DNA from: Candidatus Rokuibacteriota bacterium
Lineage (GTDB): Bacteria > Methylomirabilota > Methylomirabilia > Rokubacteriales > CSP1-6
NCBI GenBank assembly: GCA_003221515.1
Contig: QHSI01000018.1
Span: 1 to 44,584, forward strand
DNA length: 44,584 bases
Reading direction: 5' to 3'
The notes under the pieces are model-generated. The model had not been told where the DNA came from. It worked only from the letters and a program-made list of their open reading frames with translations, and made no database searches. A program made the position numbers and the translations under genes. Below are positions 1,695-15,729 of the stretch, in pieces. Numbering within the stretch: the stretch's first letter is position 1; each line of letters starts with the position of its first letter.

Positions 1695-1706
1695 CGGCGT
1701 CATCGA

Positions 1707-1738
1707 GGCCGGCCTCCCCGAGGGCGAGGAGGCCGGCC
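1707..1738. terminator. 11-bp perfect hairpin between convergent genes, likely bidirectional terminator
   Basis: GGCCGGCCTCC (1707-1717) and GGAGGCCGGCC (1728-1738) are perfectly complementary around a 10-base loop. The hairpin lies between the stop codons of the hydratase (1694, plus strand) and the PQQ dehydrogenase (1750, minus strand). There is no U-run on either side, so if it terminates transcription it is not a canonical intrinsic terminator. Confidence 0.55.
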
Positions 1739-1749
1739 AGTCCCTGAGA

Positions 1750-3349
1750 CTAGTCCCTGAGCGCGAACACCCAGATCACCCCGCCCTGAGGCACCTCGGT
1801 CTTCGTCCCGCGGAACGTGTCGAGCCGGGCCTGCATCCGCTGGGCGTCGATGCCCCAGCCCGATTGCACGGCGACGTACTGCACGCCGTCGACGGCGAAC
1901 GAGCTCGGCACGCCGGTGATCCCGGAGTTGGTCTTGAACTTCCACCCGCTGACCGGTCGTCATGTCCCAGGCCTGGAGCTCGCCGATGTGACTGGCGCCC
2001 TGGCGCCAGCTCATCGTGGTCTTCGGGCGGTCGATACCCAGGTAGAGCTTCCCGGGCTCGTAGGGATCGGGCTTCGGCTGGCCCACCAGCGTGGAGCAGA
2101 GATTCTCGTTGGCCGGGATGTAGAGGTACTGCGTTTTCGGGTTGTAGCCGGCCGGCGTCCAGTCCTTGCCGCCCCAGAGCCCCGGGCAGAAGGTCACCGT
2201 GGCGCCCGCGCGCGGCTTGCGCTCCTCGTTGTAGCTCGGCCGCCCGGTCACCGGGTCGAGCTTGGTGAAGACTTCCTGGGTGACGAATGGGCGCGCGTCC
2301 ACGAACTTGATGCTGTCGGCGCCGCGCTCCAGCCGCCAGAGATAGCCGTTGCGGCCCGGGTGCACCAGGCCCTTCACGGTGCGCCCGTCCTTGGGGAAGT
2401 CGATCAGGAGCGGCGTGGAGACCTCGTCCCAGTCCCAGGAGTCGTTCCAGTGATACTGGTGATGGGCGCGGATCTTGCCGGTGTCGACGTCCAGCGCGAG
2501 CACAGAGGAGGAGTACAGGTTGTCGCCCGGCCGCATATCGCCCATCCACGGCGCCGCATTGCCCGTCCCCCAGTAGCTCAGGTTGAGCTGGGGATCATAG
2601 TGCGCGGTGAGCCAGACCGACACGCCGCCCGTCTTCCAGGTCTCTCCGGGCCAGGTGTTGTGACCGGGCTCACCCGGCCCCGGGATCGTGTGCGTCTTCC
2701 ACACCGGCTTCCCGTCGCGCGCGTCGAAGGCGGCGACGTACCCGCGGATGCCGAGCTCGCCGCCGGAAGTGCCGATCATGACCTTGCCCTTGGCGACGAG
2801 CGGCGCCAGGGTGAAGTAGTAGCCGTTCTTGTAGTTGTCGACGGTCGTGTCCCACAGGACCGCGCCCGTCTTGGCGTCGAGCGCGATGAGATGCGCGTCG
2901 ACGGTCGCCAGGAAGAGTCGGTCCTCCCAGAGCGCCACGCCGCGGTTCGTGGGATGGAGCTGGAGCAGGTCCTCCGGCAGCTCCTTTTTGTAACGCCAGA
3001 GCAGGTCACCGGTCTTCGCGTTGAGCGCCAACACCTGCTGCTGCGGCGTCGTGACGAACATGACGCCGTTGTTGACGATCGGCGGCGACTGGTGACCTTC
3101 GTTCACGCCGGTGGAGAAGGTCCACACCGGGACGAGCTTCTTCACGTTGGCCGGCGTGACCTGGTCGAGCGGGCTGTATCCCCAGCCGTTGAGCGTACCG
3201 CGGTACATCAACCAGTTGTGCGGCTCCGGGTTGAGGAGCCGTTGCTCGGTCACCGTGCTGTAGCTCACCGTGCTCTGCGCGGTGAGCATCGCGGGTTCGA
3301 GCGCTACCAGGACCGCGAAACTCAGGATCGCTAGCCTTCTCACCGACAT
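1750..3349 (-). pseudogene. PQQ-dependent alcohol dehydrogenase (XoxF-like), frameshifted near its C-terminus
   Basis: An eight-bladed quinoprotein of the methanol/ethanol dehydrogenase family, about 533 residues, with a Sec signal peptide ending ...AMLTA-QS. Visible ligands are the Glu of GGELGIRG, the Asn of GTGNAAPW, the catalytic Asp306 and a second Asp308 (WDWDE). Asp at +2 from the catalytic Asp is the lanthanide-type signature. The vicinal Cys-Cys pair of classical methanol dehydrogenases is absent. The frame breaks at about 1941-1947, after ...AWDMTTGQRV. Shifting frame restores KFKTNSGITGVPSSFAVDG and the end GGVIWVFALRD before the TAG at 1750-1752. Loss of two bases from an ancestral V-W-K reading explains it best, since it restores the blade Trp. 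It follows the Rieske gene on the same strand, 64 bases apart. The frameshift may be real or a sequence error. Confidence 0.88.
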
Positions 3350-4086: not shown

Positions 4087-6091
4087 GCCTCGCCGGCCGG
4101 GGCGGCGGCATCCGCCGGTCCCAGCCGATCTCGGCCTGCGCCACGACGTGAGGCACGTCCTCGGCGAGGAGAAAGCCCGAGCGCGCGAGCGTCTCGGCCT
4201 CACGTTTGACGAGCTCCACGTACTGCGTTCGGTCGCCATAGCGCTCGATCACGCTCGCGCGCGGATCGCCACTGCGCTCGCGCTCCGCCCGGTCGCGCGC
4301 AAACGGGATGAAGGTTCCGTAGAAGTCCACGAGCTCACCCGGGTTGACCGCGCCGCGACGGAGGCTCCACGGAGTGTAGGTCGCCAGCGGGGCCAGGAGC
4401 TCCAGGCTCCGGACACCGCCCACCTCGTTGCCGTCGGCGTCTACTTGAGGCACGCGAACGGGGAACGCCCGGCCGAGCCGCGGCGGCTCCAGCGTGATGA
4501 TACCGTTCGCCCATCGCGGCCCGTAGTCGACCCGGTACGCCTCGTGCGCCGCGCGCGGCCATCCGACTCCGGGAATCGCTGGAGCTTGCACGCGATCCAC
4601 CGCGACGAGCGTGGCGTTGTCGAGGCGAGGGTGCCGGCTCGGGGGCGGCTCGCGTCCGTCCCGCACCCACTCGACCAGCCGCGTCAACAGCGACCTCAAC
4701 GTGGGATGAAAGTCGAGCGGGCTGCCTCGATACGTCGCGACGGGGTCGGTCCGCTCCGGGACGGCCGGCGTGCCCACCACGAAATGCTGGGCGCCGGCGA
4801 GATGGTAGATGCGCTCGCTGGCGAGCAGCTCCACGTCGGCGTCGGCGCCCGGTGTCGTGTGGATCAGCGAGGCGGCGCGGCCCCAGTACTCGTAGCCGGT
4901 GTTGGTGAAGAAGATCTTCGGCACGTGCGCCTCGTGGGCGAACAGCCCGTCGGTCATGCCCGTCTCCGGATCGCGTTGACTTCGGCCGCTGAACGGAAAG
5001 AGGTCCGTCGGATAGAAGAACGCGGAGAACCGATGCGCGTCGCGTGACGGCTGCGCGAACCGATGGTTGAAGCTCCCGCGCCCGGCGCCGGCCGTGTGCA
5101 CGAACAGGCCGTCGAACACCTGGCGTCGCGCCTCGTCGGTGTTGAAGCCCTGATAGACCAGATGCCGCAGGAACCGGCCGGTTTGCGAGATCCCGAGGCC
5201 GAGGGCCCAGCGGACCCCAAAGGGACTGGCCTTGTCGTACTTGGCGTACGAGATCATGTCCCGCACCGCGGCGAGACCCATGCCGACGACCACCGGGTCG
5301 CGCGCACGGTAGACGAGCTCGTAGATCTTGCCTGGCTCGAAGCCTCCGGTGCGCGCGATCCGCGTCTCGTCCACGAAGCGCCACTGGTCCCGCGGCACGA
5401 CGCGGCGAGCCGCCAGCCGGCCGTCGCGCTCGGTCAGCACGTTGTCGGCGTGCTCCGTGTCGGCGATGGGATACGGCCGGTGGTTGCGGTGGCCGAGCGG
5501 CAGGGTCGCGACGCGCTCGTCCACGGTCCAGTCGCAGCGCACCGGGCCCTCGATCGGGCGGGCGCCGTCGGTCGCGATCGGCACATCGAGGCGCATGGCG
5601 CCGTCGCGGAGCGGCACGTCGAACTGCCAGCCCACCCAGATGAGCGTCAGCCCGAGGCGTAACGGAAGCGCGTCGCCGAAGTCATCCGCGGTCGTCGGGT
5701 TCGCTCTCCACGCCGCGCGCGCGAAGTACGGCAACACGGCCTTGCCCCCACGGTTGGAGACCTCGAGAAGCGCGACCGCGCGGTCACGCGGCATCGCCTT
5801 CGGGCGCAGGACCATGAAGTTCGCGGATGCGGTGACGCGGCCGCTCGCGTCCTTCGGCGCGCGCGTGAGGTCCACGATGGCCGCGTTGGCGGTGTTGGCC
5901 GTGTCGAGCGCGAACTCGACCACACCGGCCAGCTTCTCGTAGCCGCCCGCCGTCCCGAAGGATCGCCCGCCGAGGACGTCCTCACGCGATTCGACGGTGA
6001 CGCGACTCACGACCGCCGCGGCGGGGCGTGCGACGACGAAAGACAGAAGCGCGAGGCCCAGCAGGGCGGGAGCCAGACGACGCGCCGTCAT
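4082..6091 (-). CDS. Exported alpha/beta hydrolase domain-containing protein (Abhydrolase_10-like)
   Basis: This 669-residue protein starts with a Sec signal peptide (MTARRLAPALLGLALLSFVVARPAAA). It matches the large hydrolase-like family often annotated 'alpha/beta hydrolase domain-containing protein'. The nucleophile elbow is visible as GISQTGRF with Ser302, followed by the RHLVYQGFN helix typical of this family. A C-terminal His candidate is in LAGAQHFVVGTP. Substrates of this family are poorly known. The open frame continues upstream to 6634, but the signal peptide and the divergent SoxC gene make the ATG at 6091 the sensible start. It is on the same strand as the Rieske and PQQ dehydrogenase genes, 68 bases upstream, so it could head that unit. 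Confidence 0.85.
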   Translation of the reverse strand: MTARRLAPALLGLALLSFVVARPAAAVVSRVTVESREDVLGGRSFGTAGGYEKLAGVVEFALDTANTANAAIVDLTRAPKDASGRVTASANFMVLRPKAMPRDRAVALLEVSNRGGKAVLPYFARAAWRANPTTADDFGDALPLRLGLTLIWVGWQFDVPLRDGAMRLDVPIATDGARPIEGPVRCDWTVDERVATLPLGHRNHRPYPIADTEHADNVLTERDGRLAARRVVPRDQWRFVDETRIARTGGFEPGKIYELVYRARDPVVVGMGLAAVRDMISYAKYDKASPFGVRWALGLGISQTGRFLRHLVYQGFNTDEARRQVFDGLFVHTAGAGRGSFNHRFAQPSRDAHRFSAFFYPTDLFPFSGRSQRDPETGMTDGLFAHEAHVPKIFFTNTGYEYWGRAASLIHTTPGADADVELLASERIYHLAGAQHFVVGTPAVPERTDPVATYRGSPLDFHPTLRSLLTRLVEWVRDGREPPPSRHPRLDNATLVAVDRVQAPAIPGVGWPRAAHEAYRVDYGPRWANGIITLEPPRLGRAFPVRVPQVDADGNEVGGVRSLELLAPLATYTPWSLRRGAVNPGELVDFYGTFIPFARDRAERERSGDPRASVIERYGDRTQYVELVKREAETLARSGFLLAEDVPHVVAQAEIGWDRRMPPPRPARQ

Positions 6092-6110
6092 GATCGTCGG
6101 AGTATACGTC

Positions 6111-6139
6111 TTGACCCTTGGGGACCGCACGGCTACCCT
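6111..6139 (+). promoter_or_regulatory. Candidate sigma70-type promoter for the soxC-soxD-like operon
   Basis: TTGACC (6111-6116) and TACCCT (6134-6139) are separated by 17 bases. They lie between the divergent hydrolase start and the soxC-like ATG at 6201, leaving a leader of about 55 bases. The -10 match is partial. Confidence 0.4.
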
Positions 6140-6200
6140 CGACGCATTCTCGGCGACCGCGCAGGACTTCGCGAGGACCGCTTCGACGGGGAGGACAGCG

Positions 6201-7499
6201 ATGCGTCCACGACGCCGTGACCGCCGTTTCGACGATGCCCGCGATGCTGCCGGGAACGGGGTGCTCGATCGCCGAGCGTTCTTGAGGGGCGGCGCCGGCG
6301 CCGTGGCGACCGGAGCGTTCATGGCGTACGCCCCGAGCGACGCGAGCGCGGCCTCGCCGCCGGAGACTCCGTCGGGAATGACGACACCCGGCGCTCCCTT
6401 GAGCCCGTACGGATCGCCGGCCACGTTCGAGCGTGAGGTGACGCGCACCCTCATCCGCTCCCAGCCCGGCACGACGGGCGCCGGCGCGTCGCGCACCCCG
6501 CTCGAGGCGCTGGAGGGCATGATCACGCCGAGTGGGCTGCACTTCGAGCGCCACCACAACGGTGTACCCACGATCGACCCGGCGCAGCACCAGCTCCTCA
6601 TCCATGGCATGGTCGCGCGCCCGCTGATCTTCACGGTGGCGTCGCTGCAGCGCTACCCGATGGAGTCGCGGATCCACTTCCTGGAGTGCTCGGGTAACAG
6701 CGCGCTGATGTATGGGGCGACGCCGCCCACGCTCACGTGCGGACAGACGCATGGCCTGGTGTCCTGCAGCGAGTGGACGGGCGTCCCGCTGCGGCTACTG
6801 CTGGAGGAGGCGGGCGTCGATCCGCGGGCCGACTGGGTCCTGGCCGAAGGCGCGGACGCGGCGGCGATGAGTCGCAGTGTGCCGATGGCGAAGGCCATGG
6901 ATGACGCGATGCTGGCGTTGTACCAGAACGGTGAGCGCCTGCGCCCGGAGAACGGCTATCCAGTGCGACTGTTTCTTCCGGGCTACGAAGGCAACATGAG
7001 CGTGAAATGGCTCAGGCGGATCAAGGTGACGGACACCCCGACGATGACGAAGGACGAGACGTCGAAGTACACCGATCTCCGGGCCGACGGCACGTCGCTG
7101 ATGTTCACCTATCCGATGGAGGTGAAATCGGTCATCACCCGCCCCGCGCCGGGACTGAAGATGACGGGGCCGGGTCTCTACGAGCTGTCCGGAATCGCGT
7201 GGTCCGGCCGGGGAAAGATCCGCAAGGTCGAAGTCTCGGCGGACGGCGGGCAGACGTGGGCGGAGGCGGTCCTTGCAGCGCCGGTGCTCGCGTACGCGCT
7301 GACCCGCTTCCGGATCGCCTGGAAGTGGAACGGCGCCCCGACGGTGCTCAAGAGTCGCGCGACGGATGACGCCGGCCGCGTCCAGCCGACGCGCGACGAG
7401 TTGATCGCCCAGCAGGGCGCCAACGTCGTCTACCACTACCATGCGATCCAGGCCTGGCGCGTCGAGTCGACTGGCGAGGTCAAGAATGTCTACGCGTGA
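6201..7499 (+). CDS. soxC: Sulfite dehydrogenase molybdopterin subunit, SoxC-like
   Basis: A 432-residue molybdopterin oxidoreductase of the sulfite oxidase family. It has a Tat signal (DRRAFLRGGAGAVATG), the SoxC-type opening GMITPSGLHFERHHNGVP, and the molybdenum-ligating Cys163 in FLECSGN. The C-terminal dimerisation domain contains the ATDDAGRVQP motif. In the Sox system SoxC works with the cytochrome SoxD in the periplasm, oxidising sulfane sulfur or sulfite. The ATG at 6201 has GGGAGGA about 6 bases upstream. It overlaps the cytochrome gene by 14 bases, which supports a SoxCD-type pair. No soxA, X, Y, Z or B is in the window, so this may be a stand-alone sulfite dehydrogenase and not part of a thiosulfate pathway. 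Confidence 0.9.
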   Translation: MRPRRRDRRFDDARDAAGNGVLDRRAFLRGGAGAVATGAFMAYAPSDASAASPPETPSGMTTPGAPLSPYGSPATFEREVTRTLIRSQPGTTGAGASRTPLEALEGMITPSGLHFERHHNGVPTIDPAQHQLLIHGMVARPLIFTVASLQRYPMESRIHFLECSGNSALMYGATPPTLTCGQTHGLVSCSEWTGVPLRLLLEEAGVDPRADWVLAEGADAAAMSRSVPMAKAMDDAMLALYQNGERLRPENGYPVRLFLPGYEGNMSVKWLRRIKVTDTPTMTKDETSKYTDLRADGTSLMFTYPMEVKSVITRPAPGLKMTGPGLYELSGIAWSGRGKIRKVEVSADGGQTWAEAVLAAPVLAYALTRFRIAWKWNGAPTVLKSRATDDAGRVQPTRDELIAQQGANVVYHYHAIQAWRVESTGEVKNVYA

Positions 7500-8031
7500 G
7501 GCGCTCGCGGTCGCCACGTGCGTCATCGTCTTCGGCGGCTGTGCGGGCACGGCCCCTCGCGAAACGCCGAACCTTGGGCGCGCGGCAACGCAAGCCGAGA
7601 TCGCGGGATGGGACATCAGCATCGCTCCCGACGGCCGGGGATTGCCGCGGGGCGCCGGGACGCCGGCCGACGGCGCACTGGTCTATGCCCAGAAGTGCCA
7701 GGTTTGCCATGGGGACAAGGGCGTGGGCGGGCCAAACGACCGGCTCGTCGGAGGGCAGGGGACCCTGGCGAGCAAGACGCCGGTGCGCACGATCGGCAGC
7801 TACTGGCCCTACGCGACGACCGTGTTCGACTACGTCCGGCGATCGATGCCGTTCTTCCAGCCGCACTCGCTGACGGACAGCGAGGTCTACGCGGTCACCG
7901 CCTATCTGCTCAGCCTGAACGGAATCATCGGGGAGCAGGACGTGATGAATGCCGAGACGCTTCCCAAAGTGAAGATGCCCAACCGCGACAACTTCATTCT
8001 GGTCCAGCCCTGGAAGCCCCGGGTGCAGTGA
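7486..8031 (+). CDS. soxD: SoxD-like class I c-type cytochrome
   Basis: The 181-residue exported protein has an N-terminal hydrophobic stretch ending FGGCAGTAP, which could be a lipoprotein or Sec signal. It carries one haem site, Cys71-Gln-Val-Cys74-His75, and a likely axial Met in RRSMPFFQPHSL. The spacing and the conserved YWPYATTVFDYVRRSMPF segment are characteristic of SoxD-type cytochromes. It is shorter than diheme SoxD and corresponds to one haem domain. The ATG at 7486 lies inside the end of soxC, so translation is probably coupled. It should accept electrons from the SoxC molybdenum centre. The convergent thioredoxin-like gene overlaps its last 38 bases. Confidence 0.87.
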   Translation: MSTREALAVATCVIVFGGCAGTAPRETPNLGRAATQAEIAGWDISIAPDGRGLPRGAGTPADGALVYAQKCQVCHGDKGVGGPNDRLVGGQGTLASKTPVRTIGSYWPYATTVFDYVRRSMPFFQPHSLTDSEVYAVTAYLLSLNGIIGEQDVMNAETLPKVKMPNRDNFILVQPWKPRVQ

Positions 8032-8980
8032 CGGGCTTCAGGGCCCCCTCGAGCTCGCGCCGCGTGGTCAATCCCTCGAACCTCGCGCGGACGATCCCTT
8101 TGCCGTCCACGACGAAGATCCACGGCTCGGAGCGGAGGTTCCACTCCTCGACCGTGGGCGAGAACTTCTGGAGGGACTCGCTCTCCCAGATCTCCTCGTG
8201 GATGAAGACGACGCGATCCCCATAGGCCGGGATCAGCGTCCGCACGACGTCGACGACCGGGCCGCACACCCGGCTGGTGCAGTACCTCGGCGTCGCGAAC
8301 ACGATCACCTGCGGCTTGCCCTGGGCGATCGCGTCCGCGATCCGCGTCCGATGTAACCGCGGATCCGGCGGCTCGCTGGAATCGATCTGCTTCAGCTCGC
8401 TGACGTCGCTGGCGATGCGGTTCCGACTGCGCGGGGCCGGCGTCCCGACCGTCGGCGCGGGCGACGTCGCGAGGGCGCTGACGCTCAAGCGCGCCGACTC
8501 GAGGGCGCCGCTGCCCACCTGCGCGAGGACCTCGAGGCCCCACGTGCCGGAGTGCTCGAAGGCCACCTGCGCCACGTAGATGCCCTGCACGTCGGTCGCG
8601 TCGCCGTGGACGTGACGCGCGCCGTCCGGATGGATGTGGATCCGCTTGCCCCGTTCGATGACCTCCAGCCGATGGTAGCGCGCCGGCGTTTCGGCGATGA
8701 GACGCGCGTCCTCGCCTTCGATCGCATAGACACGCACCGCGACCCTGGCGTCGGCGAGCAGCTTTCCGTCCTTCAGGAGGCCGAAGGCCAGTCGATTCTG
8801 GCCGACGAGCAGCTCGGACGTCGTGAGCAGGACTTGAAGGCGGTCTGTTCCCGTCGGGGCGAGCTGCGCCGCCGGCCGGTCGCGCTGGGCGAAGCAGACG
8901 GCCAGGAGTCCCAGCGTGACCGCGCCGGAGATGAGGGACGGACGCAGGCGCGCCCGTCCCTGCCGTTCGCTATTCCACAA
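7994..8980 (-). CDS. Exported thioredoxin-fold protein with N-terminal FixH/YtkA-like region
   Basis: The 328-residue product has an N-terminal membrane/signal segment (SLISGAVTLGLLAVCFA). A beta-rich region of about residues 45-170 resembles YtkA/FixH-type domains, with a His-rich patch HIHPDGARHVHGD that could bind metal. The C-terminal thioredoxin fold has a CTSRVC motif (Cys234, Cys239). Four residues between the cysteines is not the usual CxxC of thioredoxins and resembles peroxiredoxin-like or SCO-like proteins. The TTG at 8980 is the first in-frame start and overlaps the end of the PQQ-cupredoxin gene by 11 bases; an internal start is possible. Co-transcription suggests a role in copper or thiol handling for that enzyme, which is inference. 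Confidence 0.7.
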   Translation of the reverse strand: MWNSERQGRARLRPSLISGAVTLGLLAVCFAQRDRPAAQLAPTGTDRLQVLLTTSELLVGQNRLAFGLLKDGKLLADARVAVRVYAIEGEDARLIAETPARYHRLEVIERGKRIHIHPDGARHVHGDATDVQGIYVAQVAFEHSGTWGLEVLAQVGSGALESARLSVSALATSPAPTVGTPAPRSRNRIASDVSELKQIDSSEPPDPRLHRTRIADAIAQGKPQVIVFATPRYCTSRVCGPVVDVVRTLIPAYGDRVVFIHEEIWESESLQKFSPTVEEWNLRSEPWIFVVDGKGIVRARFEGLTTRRELEGALKPVTAPGASRAGPE

Positions 8981-11036
8981 TGACCTGGCCGTACTGCCAG
9001 GGGTGGGGCAGACAGATGTAGTAGTAGTTGCCGGGCTGCGCGAAGGTGACGGCCTTCGACTGGCCTTTGACCAGCACGCCCGTGTCCCACTTGCCCCGGT
9101 CCATCGACGTCGCCGAGTGCGGCAGGTCGCCGACGTTGGTGAAGGTCACGGTGGTCCCGGCCTTGATCCGCACCCGGGCCGGCGCGAAGCTGTACTCCAC
9201 GTTGTTCGCGCCGATCCTGACCGCGTCGGCTCCGGCGGCGATCGGTCCGGTGGGCCCCGCGACGGTTTGCGGCGGTGGCGGCGGCCACAGCGGACCCAGC
9301 TGGCCCTTCAACGAGAACGCCCACACCGCGTCGCCGTACGCGCTGCCCGTGAGCTGGTTGCCACCCGTCGCGATCGCGACGAACTGCTCGCCGTCCACTT
9401 CGTAGATCACGGGCGGCGCATCGGCGCCGAAACCGGTCTGGAACCGCCACAGCTCCTTGCCCGACTTGGCGTCGATCGCGAGGAAGTTGCCGTCGGGATC
9501 GCCGCGGAACACGAGGCCGCCCGCCGTGACCGACGAGCCACCGCCGCCGCCGATGCGATACGGGGTCTTGTTCTGCCAGGCGATCTTGTTCGTCTTGCCG
9601 TCGATCGCCGTGAACGTGCCGCTCATCGGTGAGTTGATGGGCGCCGACTGGCTTCCGCCGGTGTAGCGCAGCCCGAGCACGTACTTGTCGCCGAAGCGCG
9701 TGAACGCGCTCGTGCGCACCGTGCCGGGCACGTAGAAGTAGCCCGTGTCGGGGCTGTACGGCATCGGCGACCAGTTCGTGCCGCCGATCCCCGACGGCTG
9801 CATGAGCACCGGGGTCTCCCAGAAGGTGTCGAAGATGCAGCCGGCTTTCTCATAGCCCGTCAGCAGCTCGGCACACTGCGGCACGGTCGCGTCGCCGCGG
9901 GGGATCGGCTGGGTCTTGGCCGTCTTCTGCCGCGGGTCCTGAGGTACCGGCTTCTCGTCGATTCCGATCAGGGGCTTGCCGTCCGTCCGATCGAGGATGT
10001 ACACCCAGCCCGTGCGCCCGGCCTCGGCGATGCCCTTGCGGGGCTTGCCGTCGATGACGGTGTCGAAGAGGACCACCGGGCTGGCCGCGTCGTAGTCCCA
10101 GATGTCGTGGTGCACTTGCTGGAAATGCCAGACGTACTCGCCGGTCTTGGCCTTCAGGGCCATCATCGAGGCGCAATAGAGGTTGTCGCCCTCGCGCATC
10201 GAGCCGTCGTAGTCCGGTCCGCAGTTGCCGGTGACGAAGTAGACGAGCCCGAGGTCGGGATCGAGGGCCGGCGTGTTCCAGATCGTCGCGCCGCCGCGCA
10301 TCGAGTGATCTGTGCCGGGCGGCCAGGTCTCGCTGCCGCGCTCGCCGGGCGCCGGGAGCGTGTACGAGCGCCACAGGATTGCGCCGGACTTGGCGTCGAG
10401 CGCGGTCAGCCGGCCCCGCACGCCGAACTCGCCGCCGGAGATGCCGCTGTAGATGATTCCGTCGTAGTAGAGAGGCGCGCTCGTGATGGTGTAGCCGTTC
10501 TCCCACTTCTCGAGGGGCGTCTTCCACTTCACCTCGCCGGTCTTCATGTCCAGGGCCACCATGTTGGCGTCGAGCTGGCCGGAGAAGAGCAGACCCTCGC
10601 CCATGGCGAGCCCCCGGTTCACCCAGCCGCAGCACACGGTCGAGATCTTCTGGTCGATGCCGGACCAGTATTCCCAGATGATCGCGCCCGTTTTCGCGTT
10701 GAGCGCGAAGACGTCGTCGTTGCCCGTGACGACGTACATGATCCCGTCCTTGACAAGCGGCGACCCCTCGAAGGAATACTTGCCGCCGGCGCCGGAGCCC
10801 TTGAGACGGGTCATCCAGGCTCCCTTGAGCTGGGCGACGTTGGTGGTGTCGATCTGCTTCAGCGTGGAGTACCGCTGGTTGGTCAGGTTGCCGCCGTTCG
10901 TGACCCAGTCCTTCCCGGCCGGGCCCCGGATCAGACGATCCATGTCCGGGTCGGCGGCCAGGGCTGGCTGGACCATCAGGAACAAGAAGCTCAGCGTCGT
11001 CACCACCGCGATCACTTGCTGCCCCAGACGTCGCAT
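8970..11036 (-). CDS. PQQ-dependent alcohol dehydrogenase fused to a C-terminal cupredoxin
   Basis: A 688-residue exported quinoprotein with signal peptide ending VQPALA-AD. Residues about 30-570 form the PQQ propeller, with the vicinal disulfide Cys135-Cys136, the Glu of GGEFGVRG, the Asn of TGNCGPDYDG, catalytic Asp314 and the lanthanide-type Asp316 (WDYD). After a Pro-rich linker (PLWPPPPPQ), residues about 595-688 are a cupredoxin of the amicyanin/plastocyanin type. Its copper ligands are His640, Cys675 and His678, but the axial Met position holds Gln681 (C-LP-H-PW-Q). Known two-domain PQQ alcohol dehydrogenases carry cytochrome c here, so copper probably replaces haem as internal electron acceptor. 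The start at 11036 has AGGGAG upstream. It is followed by the overlapping thioredoxin-like gene. Confidence 0.9.
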   Translation of the reverse strand: MRRLGQQVIAVVTTLSFLFLMVQPALAADPDMDRLIRGPAGKDWVTNGGNLTNQRYSTLKQIDTTNVAQLKGAWMTRLKGSGAGGKYSFEGSPLVKDGIMYVVTGNDDVFALNAKTGAIIWEYWSGIDQKISTVCCGWVNRGLAMGEGLLFSGQLDANMVALDMKTGEVKWKTPLEKWENGYTITSAPLYYDGIIYSGISGGEFGVRGRLTALDAKSGAILWRSYTLPAPGERGSETWPPGTDHSMRGGATIWNTPALDPDLGLVYFVTGNCGPDYDGSMREGDNLYCASMMALKAKTGEYVWHFQQVHHDIWDYDAASPVVLFDTVIDGKPRKGIAEAGRTGWVYILDRTDGKPLIGIDEKPVPQDPRQKTAKTQPIPRGDATVPQCAELLTGYEKAGCIFDTFWETPVLMQPSGIGGTNWSPMPYSPDTGYFYVPGTVRTSAFTRFGDKYVLGLRYTGGSQSAPINSPMSGTFTAIDGKTNKIAWQNKTPYRIGGGGGSSVTAGGLVFRGDPDGNFLAIDAKSGKELWRFQTGFGADAPPVIYEVDGEQFVAIATGGNQLTGSAYGDAVWAFSLKGQLGPLWPPPPPQTVAGPTGPIAAGADAVRIGANNVEYSFAPARVRIKAGTTVTFTNVGDLPHSATSMDRGKWDTGVLVKGQSKAVTFAQPGNYYYICLPHPWQYGQVIVE

Positions 11037-12811: not shown

Positions 12812-12937
12812 CGGGCCACTTCAACGACGAAGGGGGTGAGCCCGGCCAAGCTCTGCCTTCGCGGAAACGGGATCAGCGGCGTACTCGCGTTTCGCTCCTG
12901 CGTTCAACAGATCCCACGGGAGATCGGGAGAATGGTC

Positions 12938-14668
12938 ATGAGGACAGCATGCACGCTCGCCCTGGCCGCGCTGATCGCGTGGTCGTCACTGCTGACGCCG
13001 GCGCCAGCGGCGGCCCAATGGACCGACGTGACGGACCAGCGATTGGCCGACCCGGACAAGGAGCCGCAGAACTGGCTCACCTACTACCGGAGCTACGGCG
13101 GCTGGCGCTACAGCCCGCTCACCCAGATCAATGTACAGAACGTCAAGCGCCTGTCGCCGCGGTGGATGCTCTCGTTGGGCGAGGCCGGCAACCAGCAGGC
13201 GACGCCGCTCGTGAACAACGGCGTGATGATCGTGACGTCGCCGTTCGGGCAAGAGCTCAATCGCGTCTACGCGGTGGACGCCACGACCGGCAAGGTCCTC
13301 TGGAAGCACGAGACGAAGCTTCCTGAAGACCTCACCGGCCTGGTCAAGATCCTGTCGATGAACCGCGGCGCCGCGCTCTACGGGGACCGCGTCTACTTCG
13401 GCACCATGGACGCGCGCGTGGTCGCGCTCAACGGCAAGACCGGCTCCGTGGTCTGGCAGAAGACGCTGGCCGACTACAAGGACGGGTACTTCTTCACGAT
13501 GGCGCCGCTCGCCGCCGACGGCAAGATCATCGTCGGCTCCAGCGGCCCCGGCGAGATGGGCAGTCGTGGATTCATCGCCGCCCTCGACGCCGACAGCGGT
13601 CGTGAGCTGTGGCGAACCTACACCATCCCGTCCGCCGGCGAGCCCGGTGTCGATACGTGGCCGGGCGAAACGTGGAAACACGGCGGCGGCGCCGTGTGGC
13701 TCACCGGCACGTACGATCCGGGGTCGAAGCTGGCCTTCTTCGGTGTCGGCAACCCGGCGCCGTGGGACGCCAACCTCCGGAAGGGCAAGAACCTCTACAC
13801 CAACTCGGTGCTCGCCCTCGACGTCAAGAGCGGCGCCATCAAGTGGTTCCGGCAGTACCACCCGAACGACACCTGGGACCTGGACACGCCGCACGAGCAT
13901 CTGCTCATCACCATCACCCGCGGCGGCCAGCCGCAGCAGGTGACGTTCCAGCCGCAGAAGACCGGCTTCTACTTCACGCTGGATCGGACCAGCGGCAAGT
14001 TCGTCTCGGCCAAGAAGTTCGCCCGCAACATCACGGTGTGGTCGGACGTGAACGCCGAGACCGGCGAGCTCATGGAGAACCCAGGCATGCGGCCGGAGGC
14101 CGGGGCGCCGCCGATGAACATCTGCCCGGCGATCTTCGGTGCGCGCAACTGGGCGCACGCCTCCTTCAATCCCAAGACCGGGCTCGTGTTCCTGCCGGGC
14201 ATGGAGCTCTGCAACAAGTACTCGATCGCGAAGGAGATCGAGTACAAGCGCGGCGCCCTCTACATCGGCGCCGACTTCACGGCATACGCGCCCGAGGAGA
14301 ACGCGGGCGTCGTGCGGGCCATCGACCCGGCCAACCAGAAGACGACGTGGGAATGGTGGACCAAGGCCCCACTCCAGGCTGGGGGCACAGTGGCCACCGG
14401 CGGCGGCCTCGTCTTCGTCGGGACTCAGGACGGTCGGCTGGTTGCCCTCAACCAGGCCAACGGCAAGCAGGCCTGGGAATTCAACCTGGGCGCGCCGGTG
14501 ACCGGGCCGCCGATCAGCTTCGCCGTCGGTGCCAAGCAGTACATCGCCGTCGTCACCGGCGGCGGCAAGGTCACCGGCGATCTGCTCGTCGGGGACGACC
14601 CGAAGCTGCAATACCTCAAGTCGATCCCGGTCGGAGGGACGCTGACGGTCTTCGGACTCTTCGAGTGA
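12938..14668 (+). CDS. PQQ-dependent alcohol dehydrogenase (XoxF-like)
   Basis: A 576-residue exported quinoprotein with signal peptide ending TPAPAAA-QW and the usual propeller blades. Visible ligands are the Glu in GPGEMGSRG, the Asn in GVGNPAPW, catalytic Asp314 and a second Asp316 (WDLD), the lanthanide-type pattern. Like the frameshifted paralogue, and unlike the cupredoxin fusion, it has no vicinal Cys pair. The two also share NWLxYxRxxxGWxYSPLxQ and PGETWKxGG, so they are closer to each other. The ATG at 12938 was chosen because GGGA lies about 8 bases before it and it directly precedes the signal peptide; ATG 12932 and GTG 12836 are less likely. The binding protein-cytochrome fusion follows with a TGATG overlap, as in xoxF-J-G clusters. 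Confidence 0.92.
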   Translation: MRTACTLALAALIAWSSLLTPAPAAAQWTDVTDQRLADPDKEPQNWLTYYRSYGGWRYSPLTQINVQNVKRLSPRWMLSLGEAGNQQATPLVNNGVMIVTSPFGQELNRVYAVDATTGKVLWKHETKLPEDLTGLVKILSMNRGAALYGDRVYFGTMDARVVALNGKTGSVVWQKTLADYKDGYFFTMAPLAADGKIIVGSSGPGEMGSRGFIAALDADSGRELWRTYTIPSAGEPGVDTWPGETWKHGGGAVWLTGTYDPGSKLAFFGVGNPAPWDANLRKGKNLYTNSVLALDVKSGAIKWFRQYHPNDTWDLDTPHEHLLITITRGGQPQQVTFQPQKTGFYFTLDRTSGKFVSAKKFARNITVWSDVNAETGELMENPGMRPEAGAPPMNICPAIFGARNWAHASFNPKTGLVFLPGMELCNKYSIAKEIEYKRGALYIGADFTAYAPEENAGVVRAIDPANQKTTWEWWTKAPLQAGGTVATGGGLVFVGTQDGRLVALNQANGKQAWEFNLGAPVTGPPISFAVGAKQYIAVVTGGGKVTGDLLVGDDPKLQYLKSIPVGGTLTVFGLFE

Positions 14669-15729
14669 TGTGGCTCCGCGGCCTCGCCCTCGCCGCGCTC
14701 GCATGGGCGGCGGGGGCCGAGGCCGCCCAACACGAAGGGCTGGAGTCGATCCGGCAGCGCGGCTACCTGCGAATCTGCGCCGACCCCTCGAACCTTCCGT
14801 ACTCGAGCAACGACCCGGCCGCACCCGGCTTCGAGGTCGAGCTGGCCCGGCTCATCGCCGCCGAGCTCGGCGTGACGGCACGCCTGGAATGGCGCGCGAC
14901 GTACGTGCGCGCGATCAAGCCTCTGCGCGACGGCGCCTGCGAGCTGTTCATGGGGCTCCCCGTGGACCGCCGCTTCCGCGAGGGCAACCCCTGGATCGCG
15001 GTCAGCCGACCGTACTACACGATGACGCACGGGCTGGTGACGCGCGCCGACGCGGGCTCGCTCACGATCGCCGACCTCAAGGGCCAGCGCGTCGCCGTCG
15101 AGCTGGCGAGCATCGCCGAGTTCTACGTCGCGTACCGCGATGTGGTGCGCGGGCTCTACAAGACGCAGGAGCAGGCGTTTCAGGCCGCGGCTCGCGACGA
15201 GGCCGTCGCCGCGTTTCTCTGGTTTCCGCTGGCGGCGTGGCTCGCCCGCGGGCGCGCCGACCTGAAGGTCGTCGCCGTCTCGGACGAGGGCCTGGCGTTT
15301 CCGATCGGGGCCGGGGTACGCAAGCGGGATCCGGGCCTCGCCGAGGCGATCGACGCGGCCGTCGAGCGAGTGCTCGCCTCTGGCCAAGCGCAGGAGGTCC
15401 TCGCGCGCTACGGCATCGAATCGGCCAGGCGGACGTCGCGCGAGCCATCGTGCTCACCGTTCGTGCTGGTGCAGGAGAAGGACCCCCGCGAGACGGGCCG
15501 CGCGCTGTTCTCCACCGCGTGCTCGCGCTGTCACGGTGCCGAGGGCGTGGGGGGCGGCACGGGCGGCGCGCTGCCGAAGCTGCGCAATTACGACGGTGGC
15601 TACGACAAGTTCTATCGCCTGGTATGGGAAGGTCGGAAGAACACGGCGATGGCCGCGTTCAAGGGCATCCTGAGCCCCGACGAGGTCCGCGCGCTCTACG
15701 AGTATCTGACCTCGCTTCCCAGGCAGTGA
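14668..15729 (+). CDS. MoxJ/XoxJ-like binding protein fused to cytochrome c
   Basis: 353 residues with a signal peptide (LALAALAWAAGAEA). Residues about 25-255 are a periplasmic binding-protein domain of the quinoprotein dehydrogenase-associated (MoxJ/XoxJ) type: GYLRICADPSNLPYSS, then PGFEVELARLIAAELG and GACELFMGLPVDRRF. Residues about 265-353 are a class I cytochrome c with haem site Cys285-Ser-Arg-Cys288-His289 and a likely axial Met in RKNTAMAAF. In methanol dehydrogenase clusters XoxJ and the cytochrome XoxG are separate proteins; here they are one chain. It would both assist the preceding dehydrogenase and accept its electrons, which is inference. Start overlaps the dehydrogenase stop (TGATG), and its stop overlaps the next start (GTGA). 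Confidence 0.88.
   Translation: MWLRGLALAALAWAAGAEAAQHEGLESIRQRGYLRICADPSNLPYSSNDPAAPGFEVELARLIAAELGVTARLEWRATYVRAIKPLRDGACELFMGLPVDRRFREGNPWIAVSRPYYTMTHGLVTRADAGSLTIADLKGQRVAVELASIAEFYVAYRDVVRGLYKTQEQAFQAAARDEAVAAFLWFPLAAWLARGRADLKVVAVSDEGLAFPIGAGVRKRDPGLAEAIDAAVERVLASGQAQEVLARYGIESARRTSREPSCSPFVLVQEKDPRETGRALFSTACSRCHGAEGVGGGTGGALPKLRNYDGGYDKFYRLVWEGRKNTAMAAFKGILSPDEVRALYEYLTSLPRQ

Follow-up and report, generated by a model that had tools for sequence, protein, structure and literature searches.

The fusion of a PQQ dehydrogenase to a cupredoxin encoded in the 44,584-nucleotide stretch of DNA analysed here (the window; Table 1), from a soil bacterium of Candidatus Rokuibacteriota, is, with reasonable likelihood, a lanthanide-type enzyme that passes electrons to its own type 1 copper, with a Met-to-Gln switch made once in the window's genus predicted to lower the potential of that copper. 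The uninterrupted reading frame encodes 688 residues, arranged as a signal peptide, a PQQ alcohol dehydrogenase (PQQ-ADH) propeller, a proline-rich linker, and a C-terminal amicyanin-like cupredoxin. Both halves of the fusion, as named in the original prediction, score above their curated Pfam cut-offs (PF01011, E=3.9e-95 at residues 44–553; PF00127, E=2.4e-9 at residues 606–688), and an AlphaFold2 model of the full protein has a pLDDT of 84.9 and a pTM of 0.87. In NCBIfam the protein scores 46.3 bits against the amicyanin equivalog cut-off of 110.2 (TIGR02657, E=4.3e-12), and 455.3 bits, slightly under the cut-off of 480.05, against methanol/ethanol dehydrogenase (TIGR03075), and so lies beside, rather than within, both families. 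A member of the fusion family from Acidisphaera likewise falls under the TIGR03075 cut-off (442.9 bits), and on these scores the family is a neighbour of the TIGR03075 PQQ-ADHs, not a core member.

Table 1. Features of the fusion gene and of the gene directly downstream, in window coordinates.
Feature	Position	Strand	Basis
PQQ dehydrogenase–cupredoxin fusion gene	8970..11036	-	Pfam/NCBIfam; orthologues in related genomes 81–93% identical
Predicted Sec signal peptide, residues 1–27 (ALA|AD)	10956..11036	-	Read from sequence: hydrophobic segment, AxA motif ahead of ADPD; cleavage site inferred
PQQ-ADH beta-propeller, residues 44–578	9303..10907	-	PF01011; top Foldseek match PedH 6zcv, E=6.4e-47
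C135-C136, vicinal cysteines (disulphide ring of PQQ-ADHs)	10629..10634	-	Aligned with the CC of PedH; kept in all full-length copper-type fusions
E203, metal ligand equivalent	10428..10430	-	PedH and orthologue alignment
N271, metal ligand equivalent	10224..10226	-	PedH and orthologue alignment
D314-Y315-D316, catalytic Asp and extra lanthanide-type Asp	10089..10097	-	Alignment onto DFD in PedH, a lanthanide-dependent enzyme
Pro-rich linker PLWPPPPPQTVAGPTGP, residues 579–598	9243..9302	-	Sequence; kept in orthologues
Amicyanin-like cupredoxin, residues 599–688	8973..9242	-	PF00127; AlphaFold2; Foldseek
H640, first copper His	9117..9119	-	Amicyanin alignment; invariant in fusions
C675, copper Cys	9012..9014	-	Amicyanin and fusion alignments
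H678, second copper His	9003..9005	-	Amicyanin and fusion alignments
Q681 (CAG), axial-ligand position; Met (ATG) in sister genera	8994..8996	-	Amicyanin and orthologue alignments
YtkA-like and thioredoxin-like gene, directly downstream, overlapping the end of the fusion	7994..8980	-	Start codon uncertain

Among solved structures, the propeller is most closely related to PedH, a lanthanide-dependent type I enzyme without a cytochrome (6zcv; E=9.4e-87 by sequence search), followed by the type II quinohaemoproteins and XoxF, with a Foldseek search using the full AlphaFold2 model returning a similar order. Alignment to solved relatives and orthologues reveals that the PQQ and metal residues are all present, R341 being retained in addition to E203, N271, and D314, and that a second Asp, D316, lies two residues past the catalytic D314, as in the lanthanide type. 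Judged by its sequence, the dehydrogenase half should be able to catalyse and should belong to the lanthanide type, and the fusion as a whole reads as a periplasmic, PQQ-dependent and probably lanthanide-type dehydrogenase, presumably of alcohols or aldehydes. PedH and XoxF (6zcv, 6dam) are the top sequence and fold matches of the propeller and share its E-N-D set, second Asp, and vicinal cysteines, however they carry no fused domain, and the TIGR03075 shortfall of the fusion family also sets it apart. These lanthanide-dependent PQQ-ADHs use separate cytochromes. The type II quinohaemoprotein alcohol dehydrogenases (1kv9, 1yiq, 1kb0) resemble the fusion in combining a soluble PQQ-ADH propeller, a linker, and a C-terminal one-electron carrier, but in the fusion the carrier is a predicted type 1 copper domain in place of a cytochrome c with its CxxCH motif, and the propeller has the extra lanthanide-type Asp. 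The original prediction that the copper domain takes the place of the C-terminal cytochrome c is apt as a positional analogy rather than as demonstrated descent, as PedH, which has no cytochrome, is the closest relative of the propeller.

Searching PDB chains with the final 95 residues returned amicyanins and the cupredoxin domain fused to a Nitrosopumilus copper oxidase (9cck), and an AlphaFold2 model of the isolated domain (residues 599–688; pLDDT 94.1) matched 9cck, 5fc9, TsNirK (6hbe), amicyanins (2idt, 33% identity), and plastocyanins in Foldseek, both model and matches being those of a cupredoxin fold. By alignment, H640, C675, and H678 provide the equatorial His/Cys/His ligands, and this Cys/His2 site is complete and invariant across all copper-type fusions. 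The CLPHPWQ motif of the window protein aligns with CTPHPFQ of the engineered M98Q amicyanin (2idt), placing Q681 over Gln98, and the ligands, the CAG codon, and Gln at the axial Met position are all as originally predicted. By homology, then, Q681 occupies the axial position, the stellacyanin-type assignment coming from sequence alignment to M98Q amicyanin only, and we infer that the site is loaded with copper and that Gln681 coordinates it.

Amicyanin itself (1aac; M98Q, 2idt) shares the fold, the C-x2-H-P-aromatic-(M/Q) copper loop, and ~30% identity with the domain, but is a free-standing partner of methylamine dehydrogenase with a natural axial Met, and differs in the loop past the first His; with Met replaced by Gln681 and a score under the TIGR02657 cut-off, the window's domain falls outside the amicyanin equivalog. 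The copper oxidase and nitrite reductase that were its top fold matches (9cck, TsNirK) are likewise enzymes with a fused C-terminal cupredoxin, however their catalytic centre is copper rather than PQQ. TsNirK provides a natural bacterial example of Gln-coordinated type 1 copper (His2-Cys-Gln; PMC6400189), although its Gln lies in the N-terminal copper site and its fused C-terminal site has Met. The His2-Cys-Gln ligand set predicted for the fusion is also that of stellacyanin and the phytocyanins, which are plant proteins from another cupredoxin branch, Gln having been arrived at independently.

Gln681 is a fixed, clade-specific state, neither an isolated variant nor a feature of the whole family. 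Within the window's genus, the orthologue occurs in seven species (G000, G002, G003, G004, G006, G007, and G008), each with Gln encoded by CAG, and all 17 other copper-competent fusions with a readable end have Met, including a second copy in G006 and the sole copy found in G005. The original prediction had counted against itself the case in which most homologues carry Met and the Gln is an isolated variant; the first part of this holds and the second does not. An assembly error is ruled out as the origin of Gln681 by the identical codon in seven genomes. In a maximum-likelihood tree a supported clade (98/98) unites the Gln sequences and is nested inside Met branches, and a single Met-to-Gln change requiring two base substitutions therefore fits as the simplest history. 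Comparison of five full-length Gln sequences with five full-length Met orthologues reveals only three positions fixed differently (219, 644, and 681), with Met orthologues being 79–87% identical to the window's Gln enzyme. As the two other amicyanin-like domains of the window's genome retain Met, the Gln is specific to this enzyme. Within the Gln clade both halves are under purifying selection (dN/dS 0.06–0.15 for the propeller and 0.09–0.28 for the cupredoxin), and the cupredoxin evolves 2–4 times faster than the propeller. A first comparison hinted at accelerated change in the cupredoxin when Gln sequences were set against Met ones, however most Met–Met control pairs behave alike, with a cupredoxin/propeller ratio of ~2.5–3.3, and the idea was dropped. 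Nor does Gln track loss of PQQ synthesis cleanly, with the whole genus, including the Met-only G005, lacking pqqBCE.

The fusion is present in 13 of the 95 Methylomirabilota genomes searched (E<=1e-20), the window's own included, all within one family, with the matching named records titled Rokuibacteriota. Outside this phylum, 84,980 species genomes were scanned with the exact patterns GDAVWAFS and Y[IL]C[LT]PHPW, and plasmids with tblastn; neither pattern fixes the axial residue, and the short exact patterns make the finds lower bounds. The scan revealed the fusion in the named strain Acidisphaera sp. S103 (Acetobacteraceae) and a Rhodopila MAG, as two copies in one Acetobacteraceae MAG, and in soil Alphaproteobacteria MAGs, a groundwater proteobacterium, and a Chloroflexi MAG. 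The architecture is thus recurrent across phyla and no oddity, and since it is conserved together with its ligands in relatives down to 49–77% identity, both are far beyond chance. Copper-type fusions group apart from unfused PQQ-ADHs in the maximum-likelihood tree, although the Chloroflexi and copper-less sequences, both long-branched, are placed with uncertainty. One alphaproteobacterial MAG holds three tandem PQQ-ADH–cupredoxin genes (L075, 19-966, 959-3058, and 3078-4784), the first and last cut by contig ends, and a paralogue clade from G005 and G006 (L078, 5686-7788; L086, 7390-9456) has Asp314 replaced by Asn and Arg341 by His, with an intact Met copper site. Distant, copper-less PQQ-dehydrogenase-like relatives were observed in Variovorax (L104, 3276-5579; L107, 3330-5579), Nonomuraea (L105, 3372-5561), and Streptomyces (L106, 3396-5570), with a cupredoxin-like domain in the same place in which C675 is replaced by Asp and the second His is gone, and with E203 and the vicinal cysteines also missing. 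As these domains have lost the copper ligands, retention of the domain in those lineages can have a cause other than electron transfer.

The product of the downstream gene matches PF13098 (E=6.9e-6) and PF13115 (E=0.002), both slightly under cut-off, and has a conserved H(I/V)HPD..RH.H motif in its YtkA-like part and an invariant CxxxxC in its thioredoxin-like part. At every Rokubacterial locus checked that encodes a Gln or Met orthologue, the fusion is directly followed by an orthologue of this gene, which was found neither at the paralogue loci checked nor at the Acetobacteraceae loci. The product is a plausible candidate helper for copper insertion or for cysteines/thiols. Convergent with this gene, a SoxC-like molybdopterin oxidoreductase gene followed by a cytochrome c gene lies at 5997-8031 (+ strand). 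Close by in the window, a second PQQ-ADH gene (1700-3349, - strand) leaves frame in its C-terminal part, being either a pseudogene or the product of a sequencing/assembly frameshift, and a PQQ-ADH gene at 12836-14668 adjoins one for a MoxJ-type periplasmic binding protein (TIGR03871) with a fused C-terminal cytochrome c (14668-15729, + strand).

In the proposed path, PQQH2 would donate its two electrons singly, in succession, to the tethered type 1 copper, which would forward them to an external acceptor, the role that a fused cytochrome c plays in quinohaemoprotein alcohol dehydrogenases. The description of this path as self-contained in the original prediction is too strong, with the copper being only an exit port and an external acceptor still needed. 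In the window's genus, the prediction for Gln681 is a His2-Cys-Gln site resembling that of stellacyanin, with a lower potential. The M148Q variant of rusticyanin, in which the Met-to-Gln exchange takes the potential from 667 mV down to 563 mV (PMC11881046), suggests by analogy a drop of ~0.1 V. The lowered copper potential would still exceed the value commonly given for PQQ in enzymes of this kind, such that electrons would continue to flow downhill while losing less energy, and would suit an acceptor of lower potential.

That the cupredoxin is chiefly structural (a cap, a dimer contact, or a binding module), with an external cytochrome or copper protein receiving electrons straight from PQQ, is suggested by the Variovorax, Nonomuraea, and Streptomyces relatives, which retain the domain without its copper Cys and second His. 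However, these four sequences are a separate long-branched group that also lacks E203 and the cysteine pair, whilst all three copper ligands are invariant in the copper-type group across several phyla, and we consider a chiefly structural role improbable. A better case, although still one we think unlikely, can be made for a near-neutral Gln681 that does not coordinate copper, or is unimportant, in an otherwise normal electron-transfer domain; this concerns Gln alone and is compatible with electron transfer through the tethered copper. The majority of homologues carry Met, the cupredoxin is the faster-evolving part, and no clear acceleration separates Gln from Met sequences beyond the Met–Met controls, but the change required two bases, CAG has been retained in every one of the seven species, residue 681 is among so few fixed differences, and Gln is a known axial ligand.

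The supply of PQQ bears on a further alternative. No PqqB, PqqC, or PqqE was found above noise in the nine genomes of the window's genus (G000–G008), and several sister genera have pqqBCE; the PQQ would therefore come from outside, or the enzyme would not be PQQ-loaded. The window's genome alone holds several PQQ-ADH genes despite the missing PqqB/C/E. An "empty" quinoprotein, lacking PQQ in vivo and with the propeller and copper domain serving another purpose, is consistent with this absence throughout the genus and with a weak-rank match to the acido-empty-quinoprotein model TIGR04528. However, that match reaches 368.9 bits against a cut-off of 650, less than the TIGR03075 score, the PQQ and metal residues are all intact, and the fusion-bearing genomes G023 and G025 have pqqC, in G025 on the same contig. 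We regard an empty quinoprotein as the least credible of these readings, and the enzyme, as a PQQ-dependent donor to its own copper, probably relies on scavenged PQQ.

The open literature searched yielded no description of a PQQ-ADH–cupredoxin fusion, and the architecture is apparently two well-known modules combined anew and undescribed there. That it represents an undescribed quinoprotein–cupredoxin family, joining catalysis by a rare-earth ion and PQQ to a tethered copper exit, with natural Met-to-Gln retuning in one genus, is a tentative proposal to which we would give slightly less than even weight. For electrodes, a haem-free dehydrogenase that carries an electron-exit domain of its own has practical appeal, and the natural Met orthologues provide a ready series on axial-ligand tuning inside a working enzyme rather than an isolated carrier. 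If true, the axial swap would be the natural counterpart, in one genus, of one known from protein engineering. PQQ alcohol dehydrogenases are known to hand electrons to cytochromes c or quinones, and a fused blue-copper exit, if true, would be a third solution, uniting PQQ, copper, and a rare-earth site in a single polypeptide.
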